From a virus: DNA of 36,218 bases. The position numbers were made by a program, and so were the translations under genes. Shown here one piece after another: positions 26,833 through 36,095 of this stretch; position 1 is the stretch's first letter; every line of letters starts with the position of its first letter. Below the pieces are notes generated by a model. The model was given only the letters and a program-made list of their open reading frames with translations, was not told where the DNA came from and made no database searches. The DNA is taken from positions 1 through 36,218 of the IMG/VR virus record IMGVR_UViG_3300021963_003902; one strand, given 5' to 3'.

Positions 26833-27250
26833 TATTTTGATAGGTACGGCTGTTCAAGCCCAACCTCTTCCTGATTATACATTCAAGAGCCCGTCCTTCA
26901 ACGGTAATGGGTACTCTGCACACGTCTTGACTATTGAAAATCAAGAACACAATCGTAGGGATGCTATTGAAAAAGAAATCCAAGCAGCTCTTGATAAAGA
27001 AAAAAACGAAGCAAAGAATACGAATATATCTAAGTTCCTTAATAACCTAGAATCTCGTATCTATGCACAGATTTCTCAAAACGTGGCGACTGCTATGTTT
27101 GCAGATGGTGGTAGTAATGCTGGCACATTAAACTTTGAAGGCAACATCATCAACTGGACAAAGAGCTCAACTGAGATTACTCTTAACGTTACTGATTATG
27201 TAGGTAGCAGCACATCTATATCAATACCATTAGGATCATTTCAGTTCTAA
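26801..27250 (+). CDS. csgF: CsgF-like curli assembly protein
   Basis: The 149-residue product has a signal peptide (cleavage likely after TAVQA) and then the CsgF N-terminal signature: YTFKSPSFNGN corresponds to FQFRNPNFGGN of E. coli CsgF, the part that plugs into the CsgG pore. The C-terminal beta domain ends with an ITLNVTDYVGSSTSISIP segment matching LNVTDRKTGQTSTIQV. CsgF sits at the outer face of the secretion channel and anchors the nucleator to the cell surface. AAGGA precedes the start, and the stop overlaps the csgG start (TAATG), the usual csgF-csgG order. Confidence 0.85.
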   Translation: MKLTTRILTLSILIGTAVQAQPLPDYTFKSPSFNGNGYSAHVLTIENQEHNRRDAIEKEIQAALDKEKNEAKNTNISKFLNNLESRIYAQISQNVATAMFADGGSNAGTLNFEGNIINWTKSSTEITLNVTDYVGSSTSISIPLGSFQF

Positions 27251-28071
27251 TGAAACATTTATTAATAATACTATCGCTTCTAGTTTTATCTGGTTGCGCG
27301 ACTTCTACAGTTATTAAAGATGTAAGTAAACCTTATATCTCTAAAAACTTAATGCAAAAGGAATTCGATATGCTTCCTGGCCCACACGGCAAGAAGCTAT
27401 CTATTGCTGTATATAGTTTTGCTGATAAGACTGGTCAAAGAAAACCAAGCGCTAACGTAGCACAACTGTCGACAGCAGTTACTCAAGGTGCTGATGCGTT
27501 CCTTATCAAGGCATTGCAAGATGTGGGTAAGGGTCAGTGGTTTGATGTTGTCGAACGAGTTGGCTTGGATAGTCTAACTAAGGAGCGTCAGCTGATTCGC
27601 CAAATGCGCGAAGCTTATGAGGGTGACAAAGCCAAGCCTCTTTCTCCTATGATGTTTGCAGGTATCATATTAGAAGGTGGTATTGTAGGTTATGATTCAT
27701 CGACAAGGTCTGGTGGATCTGCGATGAGGATGTTGGGCATTGGTCCACAAACACAGTATTCTGAGGATATAGTAACTATCAGCTTAAGAGCTGTTAGTGT
27801 GAATTCAGGAAAAGTTTTAGTATCAGTAACAGTGCAGAAGACGGTTTATTCTGCTGCTGATAGCTTAGCGATGTTGAAGTTCGTTAAGAATGGAACACAA
27901 GCATTTGAATTGGAGACAGGATTAACTATCAACGAGCCAGGTACACTAGCTGTTAAAGCTGCTGTTGAGGCTGCAGTTGTTGAGCTTATTAAAGAAGGAG
28001 AGAAGAAGGGGGTTTGGGATTTCTCATATCCTTATGTCGCTCCAGAAAATAAAATAGAGGAGACAAAATAG
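27250..28071 (+). CDS. csgG: CsgG-like curli secretion channel lipoprotein
   Basis: The 273-residue protein has a lipoprotein signal (LVLSGC, acylated C16) and strong CsgG similarity: GKKLSIAVYSFADKTGQ, LSTAVTQGADAFLIKAL, the ERVGLDSLTKERQ helix, GGIVGYDSSTRSGG, LGIGPQTQY and a terminal EKKGVWDF. CsgG forms a nine-subunit outer-membrane channel that exports unfolded curlin. The segment forming the channel eyelet (E. coli Y51, N55, F56) reads KPSANVAQLSTAV: the aromatic residues are absent and one residue is added. It follows csgF and precedes a curlin gene with a strong AGAGGAG ribosome site. Confidence 0.93.
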   Translation: MKHLLIILSLLVLSGCATSTVIKDVSKPYISKNLMQKEFDMLPGPHGKKLSIAVYSFADKTGQRKPSANVAQLSTAVTQGADAFLIKALQDVGKGQWFDVVERVGLDSLTKERQLIRQMREAYEGDKAKPLSPMMFAGIILEGGIVGYDSSTRSGGSAMRMLGIGPQTQYSEDIVTISLRAVSVNSGKVLVSVTVQKTVYSAADSLAMLKFVKNGTQAFELETGLTINEPGTLAVKAAVEAAVVELIKEGEKKGVWDFSYPYVAPENKIEETK

Positions 28072-28854
28072 ATGAACAACTATTTGAAAATAATGGTTGC
28101 GATGATATTTTCAATGTCTGCATTCGCGGCAGACAATAGCATTTATATTGATCAGTCAGGTGATAATTCTACTATTGATATTACTCAAACTGGTGCAGGT
28201 AACGTAGTACGTGGAATCCAAGGAGTTGGTACTGGTAATACAACACCAGCTAAGATCTATGGCAATAACACTGCCATTGATATCCAACAAATCGGTTCTA
28301 CTAATACATTAAACTTAGGTGTGAATACATCTACAGCAACTGGTAGAGCATATGGTATTGACTTGACATACTATGTTACAGGTAATTCTGGTACTGCTAC
28401 TATTAATAGTAATAATGCTGGAACTGGTACTTCTGGATCTAACTTTATTGACGTAAGACAAACAGGTAACTCTGCTAGTATTAACTTAAATATCTTAGGT
28501 TCTAAGAATGACTTTACTGCTGTAACTTCAGGCGGTTCTGGTAATAGTATTGTATCAACGATTACAGCTGATGAGACAGTTAATAATATATCAATGACAG
28601 GCGGTGGAAGCAACACACTTACACAAACCATCTCAAGTAATAAAGCTACAAACAGTATTACTACAGTTGGTGCAAGTAATGGTATAGTGTTAACACAATC
28701 AGGTACAGCTGGAACCAATGGTCATGCATTTACATTAAATCTAACTGGTTCAAGCAACACACTTAATGTTACACAATCTGGTACTATCGATACTACAGTT
28801 AACTTACTTAGCACTGGTAGTGGTAATGCATGGAACATCACAACTGGAAACTAA
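28072..28854 (+). CDS. Curlin-repeat secreted amyloid-like protein
   Basis: The 260-residue protein has a signal peptide ending AFA and then imperfect repeats of the curlin type, with alternating polar positions and conserved Gln/Asn/Gly: YIDQSGDNSTIDITQTGAGN, DIQQIGSTNTLNL, DVRQTGNSASINL, VLTQSGTAG, NVTQSGTIDT. Such x-(Q)-x-G-x(2)-N units form the cross-beta rungs of CsgA and CsgB. It lies immediately after csgG, so it is the likely export substrate, either the fibre subunit or nucleator. It is almost twice as long as E. coli CsgA (about 150 residues). Charged residues are few and cysteines are absent, as in curlin. Confidence 0.85.
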   Translation: MNNYLKIMVAMIFSMSAFAADNSIYIDQSGDNSTIDITQTGAGNVVRGIQGVGTGNTTPAKIYGNNTAIDIQQIGSTNTLNLGVNTSTATGRAYGIDLTYYVTGNSGTATINSNNAGTGTSGSNFIDVRQTGNSASINLNILGSKNDFTAVTSGGSGNSIVSTITADETVNNISMTGGGSNTLTQTISSNKATNSITTVGASNGIVLTQSGTAGTNGHAFTLNLTGSSNTLNVTQSGTIDTTVNLLSTGSGNAWNITTGN

Positions 28855-28855
28855 C

Positions 28856-29176
28856 ATGAAAACTATATTATTTTTAGTAATGATAGGTATTAGCTTCTTT
28901 GTATTTTCAAAAGAAGTTAAGAAATTGCATTTCAATTATAATGATAAGGTTACTATTTGGATAAGTAATGAAGCATGTACGTTACCTCAATTTATCAAAC
29001 AATTTCCATGGAAAGCAGAAGCTATCCGTTCTGATGGAGATATAATGATAGGTTGTTTTAATGGTGAAAATAATACAGTAACTATTCAGTGGAATGGCGG
29101 AGATAGAAGTATGTTTCCAGCAGATTATTTTTTATATAATAAGTCCAGTGAAGTACTTCCTAAAAATAATCTATAA
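28856..29176 (+). CDS. Small secreted protein of unknown function
   Basis: From ATG 28856 the gene encodes 106 residues: a hydrophobic signal-type N-terminus (MKTILFLVMIGISFFVFS) and a beta-rich domain with two cysteines (NEACTLPQF and MIGCFNG) likely to form a disulfide in the periplasm. I compared it with CsgC and CsgE, expected in a curli locus, and see no convincing match. Small two-cysteine secreted proteins of this type occur in other phages (from memory). Its place between curlin and FecR genes suggests a chaperone or inhibitor of curlin folding, but this is guesswork. Confidence 0.6.
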   Translation: MKTILFLVMIGISFFVFSKEVKKLHFNYNDKVTIWISNEACTLPQFIKQFPWKAEAIRSDGDIMIGCFNGENNTVTIQWNGGDRSMFPADYFLYNKSSEVLPKNNL

Positions 29177-30269
29177 AGTATTATTACTATTAGTAGCTAC
29201 AAATTCATTTGCTGCAATAGGAACTATTACTGAACAAAGTAATACCGCTCCTAGCATAACGCGAAAGAGCGGTACACTTTCAGGTTCAAAAGGTACAGGC
29301 GTTGAAATGTCTGATACCATCAAAACAACTCAAGGTAAAGTAGGTATTACCTTTGAAGATAAAACAAAAGTAGACATCACAGAGAACTCGAAGTTAGTTA
29401 TCGATGAGTTCGTCTATGATCCAAATTCAAAGAAGGGCGGCAAGTTAGCAGTCAATATTGCACTTGGTACGGCACGCTATGCATCTGGTCAAATTGCAAA
29501 GAATAACCCACAAGCGGTTGCGATTAATACTCCTACGGCTACTGTCGCTGTCCGCGGTACAGACTTTACTGCTACTGTTGATGAGTTAGGTAGATCCACA
29601 TTCATCTTATTACCATCTTGTCCAAAAGGTTGGATTGATGTAGAAAAAGATTGTAAGACTGGTAAGATCGAAGTTATCACAGATGAAGGTAAAGTCCTAT
29701 TAGATAAAGCATTCCAAGCTACGAGAGTAGATTCAAAAGAAACACGACCATTCAAACCTGTTATAGTTAACCTTACAGAAGACATGATTAATAACTTATT
29801 GGTATTATCTCCTCCAAAAGAATTAAGAGAGACTGATAAAGATAGACAGCGAAATAGAGAATCTGCAAAGGGAGCACTTGATGTTGACTTCCTTGCAGAG
29901 AATAAACTAGTAGACGTTCTTGCTAAAGAAGAGAAAGAGATGTACCAAGATAAGTTATCTCGTAACCTATTAGATAACGACTTCCTTGCAAACGTATTGG
30001 ATATCATCAATGCGCAGCTAGCTGCACAACTAGATTTACTTGGTAAGACAAAGAGTGGATTGTTACCAGACTATGTACCAACTTCAGGTGTTACAGTTGA
30101 GGTTGATGATTTACAAGTTACACTATGCAGAGAATCTGGTGGAGACACTCAATGTATCACAACACCAAAGAATCAAAACACAACAGTAACACAGGTACAA
30201 GGTCCGGTAGAGATTAAGAATAGGATTAATAATGGTGGCAACACGACTATTACAGCTACTCAAAATTAG
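29148..30269 (+). CDS. Secreted FecR-domain protein
   Basis: I choose GTG 29148 because it gives a clean signal peptide (MKYFLKIIYKVLLLLVATNSFA); ATG 29094 would add 18 residues before it. The mature protein (about 350 residues) carries a FecR domain: GTLSGSKGTGVEMSDTIKTTQG, then ITFEDKTKVDITENSKLVIDEF and INTPTATVAVRGTDF, the family's beta-solenoid hallmark. The second half is helical and charged, with Thr/Asn-rich ends. FecR domains sit in the periplasm and pass signals, often to CHASE2 or sigma-factor partners. The gene overlaps both neighbours (29 and 38 nt) and lies two genes from a CHASE2-cyclase, a known pairing. Confidence 0.82.
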   Translation: MKYFLKIIYKVLLLLVATNSFAAIGTITEQSNTAPSITRKSGTLSGSKGTGVEMSDTIKTTQGKVGITFEDKTKVDITENSKLVIDEFVYDPNSKKGGKLAVNIALGTARYASGQIAKNNPQAVAINTPTATVAVRGTDFTATVDELGRSTFILLPSCPKGWIDVEKDCKTGKIEVITDEGKVLLDKAFQATRVDSKETRPFKPVIVNLTEDMINNLLVLSPPKELRETDKDRQRNRESAKGALDVDFLAENKLVDVLAKEEKEMYQDKLSRNLLDNDFLANVLDIINAQLAAQLDLLGKTKSGLLPDYVPTSGVTVEVDDLQVTLCRESGGDTQCITTPKNQNTTVTQVQGPVEIKNRINNGGNTTITATQN

Positions 30270-31572
30270 TCTATTACTAATAAGCTTCTCGGCTTATGCA
30301 ACAGACAATGCTATTAAGATGGCATACAACTTTACAACTGTATCTCAGACCGTTGTATTCAATAGTGCTATGCAAGCTGGAGGTACACTAACGCTTTCCG
30401 CTCAAGCTATGGATGGCGGTGGCCGTGCGCCTGGAGATCCGTTTACTTTAAAAATGGTTTTCTATAATAGTAATAATGCTATCATTACAACAGTACAACA
30501 AGCATTTACCTTAACATACGGAGTAACCACTCCTTCAACTTACAGTGTATCAACTGCAAACTGTGGAGGAAGTTGTACTAACGTTGCTTATGTTAGTGTT
30601 CAATTCTATGGTAAAGATGGTGGATACTGGGCAGGTAACTATGGTCCATATATCGTTTCACCAAGCCTAACTTTTGCTGGTGGAGGTAACATACTTTATA
30701 ATCCAGAGTTTGGTATCTATGGAACAAATGGATATGCACAAGGATGGGCATCCACTGCTGGTTGGCAAAACTGCGCATTATATTCTGGATCTGCGACTTG
30801 CGTTATAAACAATGGAGCTCCAGTAAATGGTGGTACTTACAGTGCTACTGGTGGAACCACATCTGGTAGTTCTGGTGGATATGTTGCTGCAGCACCAGCA
30901 CCCACGTATAGTTCAAGTATAACTAATGCACAAGAAACACGTAAGAATTCTGAAACTACACAACGATTAAATCAATCTGGTAATGAGATACAGATAGAAC
31001 AAATAGGCGATAATAATAACATTACGATAAGACAAGGCGTAACTATTAGTGGTAAGAATAGGATTGAGTTATACTCTAATGGAGACTACAATACACTCAA
31101 CTTAAATCAAGGTTATACTACAACAGGAACAGTATCAGTAGGAGACAGTAATAACCATTATCTAAACTTAAATATGATAGGAAATAATAACTCTGTAACG
31201 CAACAACAGACTGGTACTAGTAACTTTGCTGAGACTACCATAAGTGGTAATAGTAATAACATAACTAATATACAGCAGGGATCTAGTGGTAAGGTTATAT
31301 TTCAGAATATAAGTGGTAACAGTAATACAGTAACAACAAACCAGAAGGATTCTGGTCAACATTATTTAGATATTAAGTTAACTGGTAACGGTCATACGGT
31401 TAACACTACACAAGAAGGAGCTGGTAACCATGCAGCCACCATTGACTTTACAAACTCCGGTGGAGCTTCATCACTCAACTTAAATCAGTCTGGATCGACA
31501 AATCAGATATATAGTATACAGCAAAGTTGTGTAAATGCCGCTGGATGCTCAACTACGATAACCCAGCCTTAA
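30232..31572 (+). CDS. Chimeric adhesin: N-terminal beta domain plus curlin repeats
   Basis: The 446-residue protein has a signal peptide (MVATRLLQLLKISLLLISFSAYA), an unrecognised beta-rich domain of about 190 residues with three Cys pairs or singles (NCGGSC, NCALY, TCVIN), a Gly/Ser/Pro linker, and about 200 residues of curlin-type repeats beginning LNQSGNEIQIEQIGDNNNITIRQ (read in parts). Repeats include LNQG, TQQQTGTSN, NISGNSNTV and LNLNQSGSTN. The C-terminus has another Cys pair. I infer a fibre-tip or nucleator protein: curlin repeats to join the fibre and a head domain to bind a target. It overlaps the FecR gene by 38 nt. Confidence 0.75.
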   Translation: MVATRLLQLLKISLLLISFSAYATDNAIKMAYNFTTVSQTVVFNSAMQAGGTLTLSAQAMDGGGRAPGDPFTLKMVFYNSNNAIITTVQQAFTLTYGVTTPSTYSVSTANCGGSCTNVAYVSVQFYGKDGGYWAGNYGPYIVSPSLTFAGGGNILYNPEFGIYGTNGYAQGWASTAGWQNCALYSGSATCVINNGAPVNGGTYSATGGTTSGSSGGYVAAAPAPTYSSSITNAQETRKNSETTQRLNQSGNEIQIEQIGDNNNITIRQGVTISGKNRIELYSNGDYNTLNLNQGYTTTGTVSVGDSNNHYLNLNMIGNNNSVTQQQTGTSNFAETTISGNSNNITNIQQGSSGKVIFQNISGNSNTVTTNQKDSGQHYLDIKLTGNGHTVNTTQEGAGNHAATIDFTNSGGASSLNLNQSGSTNQIYSIQQSCVNAAGCSTTITQP

Positions 31573-31579
31573 TAAATAA

Positions 31580-31609
31580 TTGTACAATATTTAAAATATA
31601 GGATATAAT
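31580..31609 (+). promoter_or_regulatory. TGTAC-type early promoter, leaderless
   Basis: TTGTAC at 31580-31585, an 18-nt AT-rich spacer, TATAAT at 31604-31609, and six bases to the ATG at 31616, placing the expected +1 on the A of the start codon. It separates the cyclase from the curli genes upstream, so the two sets can be transcribed at different times. Confidence 0.82.
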
Positions 31610-31615
31610 TGATAT

Positions 31616-33631
31616 ATGAAAAGATTATTATCGCCGTGGTTTGCATTATTAACTTTAGCATTATTAATAGGTGTTAGAGCTACCGATCCAGCATTTATAG
31701 AATCAGTTAGACTTAGATACTTTGATACACTCATCACATCTAAACCTATAACTCAATCTAAACAAGTTCATGTCGTTAATATCGATGATAAAGCTATAGA
31801 ACGACTTGGGCAATTTCCATTTCCAAGGACACAATATGCGAACATTATTGAAGATATTTATTCCCGTGGTGCTGGTCTCGTTGTCTTTAATCTCTTTATG
31901 CCTGATAGTGACAGGTTTGGACGGGATTCTGGACTGGCTGATACACTCACTCGGCATCCTGTAGTACTACCTCAAGTAGCAACTTCAGATAAACAAAAAC
32001 CTGGGGCATTTAGACCAGGAGTATCAGAGATCGGTGGTAAAGCATCTGATTTTGCAGTAAATTATCCTGGTATTCAAGCCAATATAGAATCTTTTAACAG
32101 CCGTGGAGCTGGAATAGGAGTTGTAAATGTATTACCTGAAATTGATGGTGTTGTTCGTCGTATCCCTATGGTCGTCGCAAGTGATGGCAAATTGTACCCA
32201 AGTATCAGTCTTGAAACAATGCGTGTTGCAGTTGGAGACCCAAGTTTCCAAGTCAAATCAAATCAACTTGGTATCGAGGCAGTTAGAATACCTAGCTTCT
32301 CCAAGGTTGTCACAGACCCAATGGGTAGAATATGGGTTGACTGGAGTTCCACTCCGATTGAACACAGTCTTGTGGGATTACCCAAATCCTTCGATGGAGG
32401 TATCGTCATCGTTGGGTTATCAGCACGTGGACTCAATAACCCAGTGGCGACACCTAGAGGAGCAGTCTTTCCTCATTACGTACAAGCTTCTGTATTAGAC
32501 ACATTAATGTCTGGCACTAACATCTCCCGTCCTGATTGGGCAGATGGCGCTGAGATGTTAACTGTATTTGTACTATCAATTCTAATAATCTTTTTATCGA
32601 GGTGGAAATATGCTATTATCCCTATTATTGGGCTTATTGGCCTTTTATATTATGCTTCTCATTTTGCCTTTACTACTTACGGCTATCTGGTGGATTCTGT
32701 GTTTCCTATTCTCGCTTTGGGTATTGTATATGCTCATTCATATACTGTTAAATTTATAAGCGAACTCAATCAGAAGTTACAGATCAAGAAACAGTTTGGT
32801 TCTTATGTAAGTCCTATCATCGTTGAACGTTTACAAAAGAATCCAGACTTAATTAAACTTGGTGGTGAAGAGAAGATGTTAACAGCAGTCATGACTGACA
32901 TGCGCAACTTCACAGGACTTGGTGAGAAGTATGGTCAAGACGTTGAAGGCTTTACTGCTATCATGAACCAATACATGACAGCCATCGCTCAACCAGTATT
33001 TAAGAATGATGGTTGTCTTATTAAGTTTATCGGTGATGCATCATTACATATCCATGGAGCTCCACTTGATGATGACAAACATGCATATCATGCTGTTAAG
33101 ACTACGTTAGAGATGATCGAAGCTGTTGAACAATTTAATAAACATCTTGAATCGATCGGTAAACCTCCAGTTGGTATGGGTGCAGGTGTCAACACAGGTA
33201 AGATCTTAGTAGGTAACATTGGATCTGAGGGTAAGATGGGTTATGACGTATTAGGTGATCCGGTCTCAGTCGCTGCTCGATTAGAGAGTCAAACTAAATC
33301 ATATGGTGTGTTGATGATCCTTGGTCCTGATACTGCGGCCGCAGTTAAAGATGACTTTGACGTTGTTTGGCTTGATAATATCGCTGTGAAAGGTAAGACA
33401 GTCGGTCTTGATATCTACACAGTAGGTAAGACTATCAAACATAAACACGAAGAGTTCCGTAAAGAATACCAACGTGGTAACTGGAAACGTGCTACAGAAT
33501 GGGCACAAGAACTCATTGATGATCCAGATGATAAAGTTACAATTAAAGAATACTATCACAAGATGATAGCTAGAATGGATGATGGCCTTCCTGCAAACTG
33601 GGATGGTACATATCATGCGACTTCTAAGTAG
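31616..33631 (+). CDS. CHASE2-domain membrane adenylate cyclase
   Basis: The 671-residue protein has an N-terminal membrane helix (about 7-22), a periplasmic CHASE2 sensor domain (about 25-305), three membrane helices (about 312-378) and a class III cyclase domain (about 415-610). Metal ligands D428 (TDMRNFT) and D474 (KFIGDA) are present, as are adenine-selecting K470 and D544. The transition-state Arg R555 is present, but the partner Asn four residues earlier is Ser (S551), so activity may be low or altered. It would make cAMP from a periplasmic signal. CHASE2-cyclases commonly accompany FecR proteins, and one lies just upstream. It is transcribed from its own leaderless TGTAC promoter. Confidence 0.9.
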   Translation: MKRLLSPWFALLTLALLIGVRATDPAFIESVRLRYFDTLITSKPITQSKQVHVVNIDDKAIERLGQFPFPRTQYANIIEDIYSRGAGLVVFNLFMPDSDRFGRDSGLADTLTRHPVVLPQVATSDKQKPGAFRPGVSEIGGKASDFAVNYPGIQANIESFNSRGAGIGVVNVLPEIDGVVRRIPMVVASDGKLYPSISLETMRVAVGDPSFQVKSNQLGIEAVRIPSFSKVVTDPMGRIWVDWSSTPIEHSLVGLPKSFDGGIVIVGLSARGLNNPVATPRGAVFPHYVQASVLDTLMSGTNISRPDWADGAEMLTVFVLSILIIFLSRWKYAIIPIIGLIGLLYYASHFAFTTYGYLVDSVFPILALGIVYAHSYTVKFISELNQKLQIKKQFGSYVSPIIVERLQKNPDLIKLGGEEKMLTAVMTDMRNFTGLGEKYGQDVEGFTAIMNQYMTAIAQPVFKNDGCLIKFIGDASLHIHGAPLDDDKHAYHAVKTTLEMIEAVEQFNKHLESIGKPPVGMGAGVNTGKILVGNIGSEGKMGYDVLGDPVSVAARLESQTKSYGVLMILGPDTAAAVKDDFDVVWLDNIAVKGKTVGLDIYTVGKTIKHKHEEFRKEYQRGNWKRATEWAQELIDDPDDKVTIKEYYHKMIARMDDGLPANWDGTYHATSK

Positions 33632-35244: not shown

Positions 35245-35391
35245 ATGTTAAATGTAAAAGGCATTAAAAAAGGTCGTATGTATGAAACCCCAGATCCTAT
35301 TGATGAGGACGAAGTTTCAATGGAAGAGAAAGAGTTATTAAATAGTTTAGTGGATCCTCATTCATGGGGTCCAGGTTATGGAGAAGAGTAA
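35245..35391 (+). CDS. Small acidic hypothetical protein on a leaderless message
   Basis: The 48-residue product starts MLNVKGIKKGRMYETPDP, continues with an acidic region (IDEDEVSMEEKE) and ends HSWGPGYGEE. I reject a start at 35209 because the promoter would then lie inside the coding region. The stop TAA overlaps the next ATG by one base. No family is recognised. Confidence 0.6.
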   Translation: MLNVKGIKKGRMYETPDPIDEDEVSMEEKELLNSLVDPHSWGPGYGEE

Positions 35392-35648
35392 TGATATTAA
35401 ATGACGAACAATTTTATGATCACGTTTACAAACAACTGGTCACAGGTGATGTTAGAGTCGTGTTTAAAAAGTTAGACGGCACCGAGAGAACTATGCTTTG
35501 TACGTTGACTAATATACCTGACGAACATCAGCCAAAGAATGCATCTGATAAAGAGCCTTCTAAAGAAGTCTTACGGGTATTTGATACTGAAAATCAAGGC
35601 TGGAGATCTTTTAGACTTGAGTCAGTCATATCAGTTCAAGCTATATAA
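35391..35648 (+). CDS. SH3-like beta-barrel protein (DUF2693-like)
   Basis: From ATG 35391 the product has 85 residues. It contains VRVVFKKLDGTERTMLCTLT and a C-terminal LRVFDTENQGWRSFRLESVIS, the strand pattern of the small SH3-like proteins annotated as DUF2693 in T4-like phages: a kxDGteR motif, then a final W-R-S-F-R-x-E-S-V/I strand. Such proteins probably bind nucleic acid or protein, but no function is established to my knowledge. An earlier in-frame start at 35364 would overlap the previous gene by 28 nt and is less likely than the TAATG overlap. Confidence 0.68.
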   Translation: MILNDEQFYDHVYKQLVTGDVRVVFKKLDGTERTMLCTLTNIPDEHQPKNASDKEPSKEVLRVFDTENQGWRSFRLESVISVQAI

Positions 35649-35649
35649 C

Positions 35650-35753
35650 GGTTTAGGCTCTCAGCCAATCAATAAAATACATGCGGACACTGCCTAGGCT
35701 CTGCTTCCGATGGGTCAGCTACTGTTGCAACGGTAGTTCCGAGAGCCTTTTTT
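35650..35753 (+). ncRNA. Candidate structured RNA ending in an intrinsic terminator
   Basis: AGGCTCTC at 35655-35662 is repeated as AGGCTCT at 35696-35702, and both can pair with GAGAGCCT at 35741-35748, which is followed directly by six T. Inside lies a clean hairpin CTACTG-TTGCAA-CGGTAG (35719-35736) and a palindrome GCCTAGGC (35692-35699). The gap is markedly richer in G+C than its surroundings. The features fit a small RNA or cis-regulatory element with two exclusive folds. It does not match the tRNA cloverleaf or the glutamine riboswitch consensus as I remember them. Confidence 0.5.
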
Positions 35754-35810
35754 AAAGTGCATTAGAGGGGTTAAACTAAGGGGCCTCTATTTGACCTAGT
35801 GCACTTTAAA
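35751..35810. promoter_or_regulatory. 60-nt hairpin before the DsbA-like gene
   Basis: An 11-bp perfect inverted repeat, TTTAAAGTGCA (35751-35761) with TGCACTTTAAA (35800-35810), encloses a second stem TAGAGG (35763-35768) with CCTCTA (35784-35789). It begins within the T-run of the upstream RNA element and ends 27 nt before the ATG at 35838. It could be a second, bidirectional terminator or a 5'-end stability structure for the downstream message. No TGTAC or TATAAATA promoter is visible between it and the gene. Confidence 0.55.
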
Positions 35811-35837
35811 AATTAATTTTAAATCGAAAGGTAATAT

Positions 35838-36095
35838 ATGCAATTATTAGAAGAAGACAAAAAGAAAATCAAAGGTGCTCTTAACGAGATCTCTGATTCA
35901 ATGACACGTGTTGAGGCTGAGAAGGACTTTGTAAAAGAAGTGCTTAAGAACCTTTATGACGAGTTTAAGATCCCTAAAAAGACATTAGCTAAGCTTGCTA
36001 ATACATATCATAAACAAAACTTCAATGAGGAAGTAGCTCTTAACGATGAATTTGAAACGATTTATCAAACAGTTACAAACCAAGAAGCAGAATAA
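35838..36095 (+). CDS. DsbA-like small regulator (tentative)
   Basis: The 85-residue helical protein starts MQLLEEDKKKIKGALNEISDSM and has a central PKKTLAKLANTYHKQNF. Marine T4-like phages have a family of this shape annotated as the double-strand-binding late-transcription factor DsbA (from memory): an acidic coiled-coil first half, a short basic helix-turn-helix-like segment, and an acidic C-terminus. T4 DsbA binds late promoters. A GAAAGG ribosome site lies eight bases before the ATG. The identification rests on layout only. Confidence 0.5.
   Translation: MQLLEEDKKKIKGALNEISDSMTRVEAEKDFVKEVLKNLYDEFKIPKKTLAKLANTYHKQNFNEEVALNDEFETIYQTVTNQEAE

Follow-up and report, generated by a model that had tools for sequence, protein, structure and literature searches.

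The window, a 36,218-base virus record of IMG/VR (IMGVR_UViG_3300021963_003902) from a lake-water phage, contains a member of an undescribed RNA family from uncultivated phages. This element, termed RNA 1, is 94 nt long (35655..35748, + strand) and comprises three stems, P1, P2 and P3. The existence of the family, its structure as supported by covariation, its genomic contexts and the maintenance of a palindrome are established. With a probability of roughly 0.7, RNA 1 would be a free-standing phage small RNA that forms a homodimer or a larger assembly through kissing P2 loops and uses its core to bind a partner.

Two RNAs in one intercistronic gap

The window phage is Melnitz-like and falls within the T4-type phages, because its CsgG-like protein gene and the adjoining curlin/FecR/curlin/cyclase cassette are ordered as in Methylophilales phage Melnitz and Pelagibacter phage HTVC008M. 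The whole cassette (CsgG, curlin, FecR, curlin, guanylate cyclase) occupies 27250-33631 and is common to both of these phages. The gap that holds RNA 1 (35649-35837) is bounded upstream by a WYL_2 gene (Sm-like SH3 fold; 35391..35648, + strand; PF10902, 4.5e-16), which ends 6 nt from P1. Downstream lies a gene for a DsbA transcriptional regulator (35838..36095, + strand; PF11126, 1.4e-9; phrog_639, 2.1e-17), and an earlier note on this DNA was correct in reading its product as a transcription regulator.

The same note had described the gap as a single structured RNA of about 160 nt. It is indeed structured, with a fold energy of -57.7 kcal/mol for 35649-35820 (z -4.17) that none of 200 shuffles equalled. 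However, it contains two independent RNAs and not one, since RNA 1 is widespread and the second element, RNA 2, is limited to the window's clade. Most of the excess stability of the gap comes from RNA 2 (z -4.48). The fold of the window copy of RNA 1 alone is unremarkable (z -1.74; 13 of 200 shuffles equal), and fold energy alone is therefore no proof of structure. At the level of sequence comparison, it is covariation that proves the structures of RNA 1 and of the long hairpin.

RNA 2 (64 nt; 35749..35812, + strand) is the long hairpin that had been noticed beside the inner one. It is a separate element with a constant inner GGTYAAACTAAGG, and its outer stem shows double changes in 5 pairs (12 cells), with 98.2% of cells paired across 15 distinct sequences. 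RNA 2 was seen only in the window's clade; pattern matches outside it were read as chance matches in coding sequence. Our guess is that RNA 2 acts as a processing or stability hairpin.

All parts of RNA 1 lie on the + strand, and the covariance model of the family, R1, matches the window at 35656-35747 (42.2 bits, E 9.4e-11). The 5' strand of P1, AGGCTCTC (35655..35662), pairs with its 3' strand, GAGAGCCT (35741..35748), the last T of which is the first of six (35748-35753). A near-invariant junction or bulge, GCCAATCAATAAAATACAT, follows at 35664..35682 (columns of 56 sequences). Its GCC can pair with the GGT of an invariant GGGT on the 3' side of P2 (35712..35715), forming P2a, the first pair of which is GU, GC or AU in relatives. 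P2 itself (35683..35709) joins GCGGA(C) to (G)CTTCCG and carries an apical segment with the palindromic loop GCCTAGGC (35692..35699), which is proposed to kiss its own copy. P3 (35719..35736), a hairpin that the earlier note had identified, ends in the loop TGCA, possibly a second self-complementary loop.

AGGCTCT occurs twice, 41 nt apart, within P1 (35655-35661) and overlapping the palindromic loop (35696-35702), and the two copies had been suggested to compete for GAGAGCCT. The pairing of the first copy stands, as the conserved stem P1, but the second copy is absent from relatives. Among 75 distinct contexts, the sequence shared between P1 and the P2 region reaches 7 nt only in the window, is 6 nt in two and is at most 5 nt in 72. 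The second copy exists only here because the palindrome, in its local form, is by chance followed by TCT; it is a coincidence of the window genome, part of a variable loop. Nor is the run of six T after P1 conserved: four relatives (L013, L010, L133 and L179) lack it.

A widespread family with a covarying fold

A search with DsbA gave 71 loci, and in many of them the gap carries this RNA, closed by a different stem. The family was assembled by pattern scans of the viral collection. Matches were kept if a regular expression found the full core (142 copies, 75 distinct contexts), and allowing ACCA and other small changes brought the collected loci, all from uncultivated phages, to 80 distinct sequences. 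Matches lacking the full core were dropped; by eye they looked like coding or chance matches. Two later scans free of the GCCA requirement added just three members (L307, L308 and L309), and the family is therefore nearly fully sampled in the viral collection for the patterns used.

MAFFT alignments of all members misplace P3 and the 3' strand of P1. We therefore built the model on a uniform subset of 23 sequences, treating P3 as unpaired, and studied P3 by folding each sequence separately. Five loci (L239, L193, L243, L205 and L257) were left out as seeds, and the alignment used for column conservation took in 56 of 68 reference sequences. The model recognised 77/77 representative loci at E 0.001. 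In the model alignment of 75 distinct rows, which is fitted to the model and hence favours it, 97.3% of cells were paired, with double changes in 10 of 18 pairs; the unfitted alignment of the 23 seeds gave the same picture (100% paired). The covariation score was 0.488, compared with 0.136 for shuffles and at most 0.095 for slid controls.

Compensatory changes among relatives, named beforehand as a check on the structures, were thus found in P1 and P2 over 75 sequences, and in the long hairpin over 15. P1 is completely changed in sequence among the 75 yet remains paired (93.6% of cells), with double changes in 8/8 pairs. In P2, the pair next to GCGGA was GC in 38 sequences, CG in 37 and broken in none, and the second pair after GCGGA takes four pair types. 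The core, GCCA-AAT-ATATGCGGA/TTCCG/GGGT, or GCCA..AAU..AUAUGCGGA / UUCCG..GGGU in RNA letters, is nearly invariant.

The earlier impression that no known RNA class fits was borne out. A gathering scan of the whole window against 4227 Rfam families, GOLLD and ROOL among them, gave no match, and nothing relevant emerged when the gap and a consensus-like relative (L218) were scanned at permissive thresholds. The permissive matches, miRNA-like and similar, were attributed to chance and lay mostly over the long hairpin. Titles and abstract openings in the literature on permuted tmRNA, kissing palindromes, phage structured RNAs, ROOL/GOLLD and T4 stable RNAs, supplements and subscription journals aside, contained no description of RNA 1.

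Of 28 records to which the model was applied, 24 had one copy each; the other four, which had none, were two virus records that other patterns had brought in (L273 and L209) and two isolate phages. By model search RNA 1 was absent from 10/10 isolate phage records, and all members are uncultivated contigs. Phages X1, SM1, XacN1, BUCT-ZZ01 and DLP_6 had no RNA 1 by model search, and blast of RNA 1 against isolate phages returned only short or tRNA matches. A single blast match in BUCT628 was not confirmed by the covariance model and was set aside. A glutamine riboswitch (glnA motif) is reported in Melnitz (PMC9004378). A link of RNA 1 to the Melnitz tmRNA/glutamine riboswitch was rejected, as RNA 1 is missing from both Melnitz and HTVC008M even though they have the curli-cyclase cassette in common with the window; identity with the glutamine riboswitch was likewise rejected, as the window and gap gave no such Rfam match. 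A pattern scan of genome contigs for cellular copies, restricted to the GGAC form, gave five matches, all by chance, and 369 genomes of one bacterial class had no RNA 1 at E 0.001 under stricter filters. The family thus appears to be phage-only so far, its absence from cells applying to those sampled.

A variable palindrome in the P2 loop

The apical segment of P2, from GCGGA to TTCCG, is highly variable yet self-complementary. A palindrome of at least 6 nt was present in 56 of 64 distinct apical segments. Segments up to 22 nt long number 56, and 50 of them had a self-complementary hexamer, compared with 12.1 on average and never more than 26 in 10,000 shuffles, the members being phylogenetically non-independent in all such counts. 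Twelve different hexamers occupy the centre of the loop, most commonly CCTAGG and TCTAGA, and all four self-complementary centre dinucleotides are used. The palindromes keep a fixed offset for each length class, in 6/8, 9/14, 14/16, 1/2 and 11/12 (60 segments). In 22 pairs with near-identical flanks and different hexamers, 20 differed by 2, 4 or 6 letters; the remaining two, which differed by 3 and by 1, both involve non-palindromic members. The hexamers of near relatives thus differ by what read as compensating changes. Self-duplexes of the loop had an energy of -10.5 kcal/mol, compared with -5.5 for shuffled loops and -4.2 between different loops.

These features probably mark the palindrome as the place where the loops of two copies pair, because its neighbouring nucleotides cannot pair within one chain. 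The hexamer palindrome is lacking in six of the 56 short loops and in some long apical domains, and some hexamer-free short segments look like three-pair hairpins. In L205, L257, L013, L036 and L032, long apical domains of 44-66 nt replace the short loop and keep a palindrome of at least 6 nt. A G-C closed hairpin loop, GTCGCNN, was seen in the apical segments of L045/L119, L139/L141 and L147 and again close to the 5' end of T4 rnaD (L186); this may be chance.

A 4-nt palindrome was present in 20 of 27 distinct P3 loops, compared with a mean of 8.2 (sd 2.1, maximum 16) in 5000 shuffles. Loops without one include the tetraloops GATA, GACG and AGCA. It is plausible, with less certainty than for P2, that P3 provides a second, optional interface. 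In L106, L258, L096, L246 and L193 the P3 loop is GTTCGAAA, a palindrome (TTCGAA) with a likeness to the T-loop of tRNA.

The phi29 pRNA and the HIV-1 dimerisation site are viral RNAs that multimerise by loop-loop pairing. We know of no homology between RNA 1 and either of them, and their location and role differ. Both phi29 and HIV-1 are named in section 8 of PMC12286853. That paper describes GOLLD and ROOL as phage or prophage noncoding RNAs, often near tRNA islands, that are present in Rfam and form RNA-only homo-oligomers via kissing loops; some are symmetric with covarying palindromes, and a scaffold or sequestering particle is suggested as their role. It also applies the palindrome-covariation argument for loop-loop pairing to OLE and GOLLD, the internal palindrome of the OLE kissing loop L9.3 switching among GGCC, GAUC and AGCU. 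The RNA 1 family is likewise phage-encoded and near tRNA islands, and its palindrome covariation supports a putative homo-oligomer of the GOLLD/ROOL kind. However, GOLLD and ROOL as described there exceed 600 nt and have other structures, whereas RNA 1 has 94 nt, no Rfam relation and a far more variable palindrome. OLE, by the same description, is a large cellular RNA of extremophiles, in contrast to RNA 1 with its 12 hexamers in one loop. T4 rnaC and rnaD (NC_000866) are small stable RNAs that lie in a phage tRNA cluster, as RNA 1 does in arrays; homology to them was rejected, since R1 has no match in NC_000866 at E 1 and the folds differ.

Genomic contexts and possible roles

RNA 1 occupies intercistronic gaps such as that of the window, the space between tRNA genes, and the intervening segment where a tmRNA gene is circularly permuted. 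Because these places are unrelated, they argue for a free-standing RNA rather than a cis riboswitch. ARAGORN placed 7 of the 75 distinct contexts inside a permuted tmRNA, 9 at most 10 nt after a tRNA or tmRNA and 8 at most 20 nt before one. The contexts that abut a tRNA or tmRNA or lie in a permuted tmRNA number 24, and 15 more are within 200 nt. For 36, the window included, no tRNA or tmRNA was called within 200 nt, a count too high by at least two, as L207 and L218 have Rfam permuted-tmRNA matches. The neighbours include tRNA-Ser, tRNA-Arg and permuted tmRNA, and all tRNAs and tmRNAs listed near RNA 1 are on its strand.

Rfam permuted-tmRNA matches span RNA 1 in 7 of 9 tmRNA-bearing loci among 15 scanned (L187, L189 with a weak, partial match, L195, L207, L215, L218 and L240). 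No such match spans it in L190 and L259, and the gathering scan gave none around RNA 1 in the window. Circularly permuted tmRNA genes of uncultivated phages were seen in L079, L187, L189, L195, L207, L215, L218, L229, L240, L244 and L254; those of L079 and L229 were called by eye, those of L244 and L254 by ARAGORN only, and the scanned ones had beta- and alpha-type Rfam matches. In several phages RNA 1 fills the intervening segment, and it also occurs without tmRNA. The accessible part of PMC11915505 describes no conserved element in the intervening segment of permuted tmRNA.

Protein neighbours differ widely (by eye, 16 contexts) and include HNH-like, cupin-like, GroES-like and Hsp20-like products. 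Other gaps before dsbA hold different material. Another structured-looking RNA lies between tRNA-Met and dsbA in L002 (~2005-2110), L011 and L012, with no Rfam match in L002 or L011. L027, L030 and L031 have a different structured-looking gap that starts near CCTAATCATAGGTAGG, and L179 carries a similar stretch after RNA 1.

We infer the transcription, processing, cellular dimerisation and partner of RNA 1 as follows. Large aquatic phages would encode RNA 1 as a small RNA gene whose transcript also spans tRNAs, tmRNA or an operon. Where RNA 1 lies in a tRNA array or a permuted tmRNA, P1 starts at the upstream CCA or at most 2 nt from it, and 2-5 nt separate its end from the 5' end of the RNA that follows, so that the normal tRNA-processing enzymes would free RNA 1. 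In the window, cleavage or termination would release it from the operon messenger. The freed RNA would fold into a three-stem junction with the strongly conserved core, and two copies would join by the self-complementary hexamer of the P2 loop. In many members a palindromic P3 loop probably joins copies as well, giving a homodimer or a larger homo-oligomer. The core, left free, would bind a host or phage partner, and during infection the assembled RNA might provide a scaffold or a sequestering particle. As a tentative extension, to which we assign a minority chance, the two self-complementary loops could build a chain, ring or cage, making RNA 1 a minimal 94-nt phage RNA nanocage whose hypervariable palindrome lets it join only its own kind (self versus non-self among co-infecting phages), and which some phages store in the tmRNA intervening segment.

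A variant of the main explanation, which we consider rather unlikely, is that RNA 1 binds a protein and that the symmetry of its dimer serves a dimeric or ring-shaped protein, with Sm-like WYL_2 as the candidate. A WYL_2 gene lies directly upstream of RNA 1 in the window, and a WYL_2-like product is encoded by the first downstream ORF in L145, L191, L119, L032 and L133 (by eye). However, the other neighbours among the 16 contexts differ, so the pairing is not general, and the adjacency may reflect shared ancestry of one clade.

The position of P1 would also suit a processing module in which P1, near CCA, keeps the ends of adjacent RNAs, or a permuted tmRNA's two halves, positioned for RNase P and 3' nucleases, and the freed piece is waste. 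CCA stands at the start of P1 in 20 of 75 contexts and in 7/7 of those that ARAGORN placed inside a permuted tmRNA. Such a spacer, however, needs neither an invariant GCGGA/UUCCG/GGGU core nor a maintained palindrome, and the 36 copies distant from any called tRNA or tmRNA also speak against this reading, which seems to us quite improbable. We are more doubtful still of a selfish mobile RNA or DNA element, whether a self-cleaving ribozyme or a short repeat spreading into tRNA and tmRNA ends. The same core does recur at unrelated sites, often exactly at CCA, and in phages only so far, but the single copy in most records and a P1 that differs and fits at each site oppose it, as does the lack of any match to the ribozyme families of Rfam (window, gap and L218). 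A riboswitch or regulated terminator in the dsbA leader, the use that the earlier note had proposed for the two AGGCTCT copies and the U run present in the window, is very improbable, because the second copy is unique to the window genome, neither the U run nor the downstream gene is constant, and a terminator scan of 35400-35900, blind to P1 as it admits only hairpin loops of 3-8 nt, found none.

Natural RNA homo-oligomers are rare, and the phage ones, ROOL and GOLLD, are large. A free-standing, self-associating RNA 1 would add a 94-nt family whose palindromes, about a dozen, are interchangeable. Its small size would bring synthesis, mutation and structure determination within reach, and its natural variation amounts to a ready-made compensatory mutagenesis experiment. 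Furthermore, the presence of RNA 1 within permuted tmRNA genes means that a conserved RNA in its own right can lie in the intervening segment of a split tmRNA.
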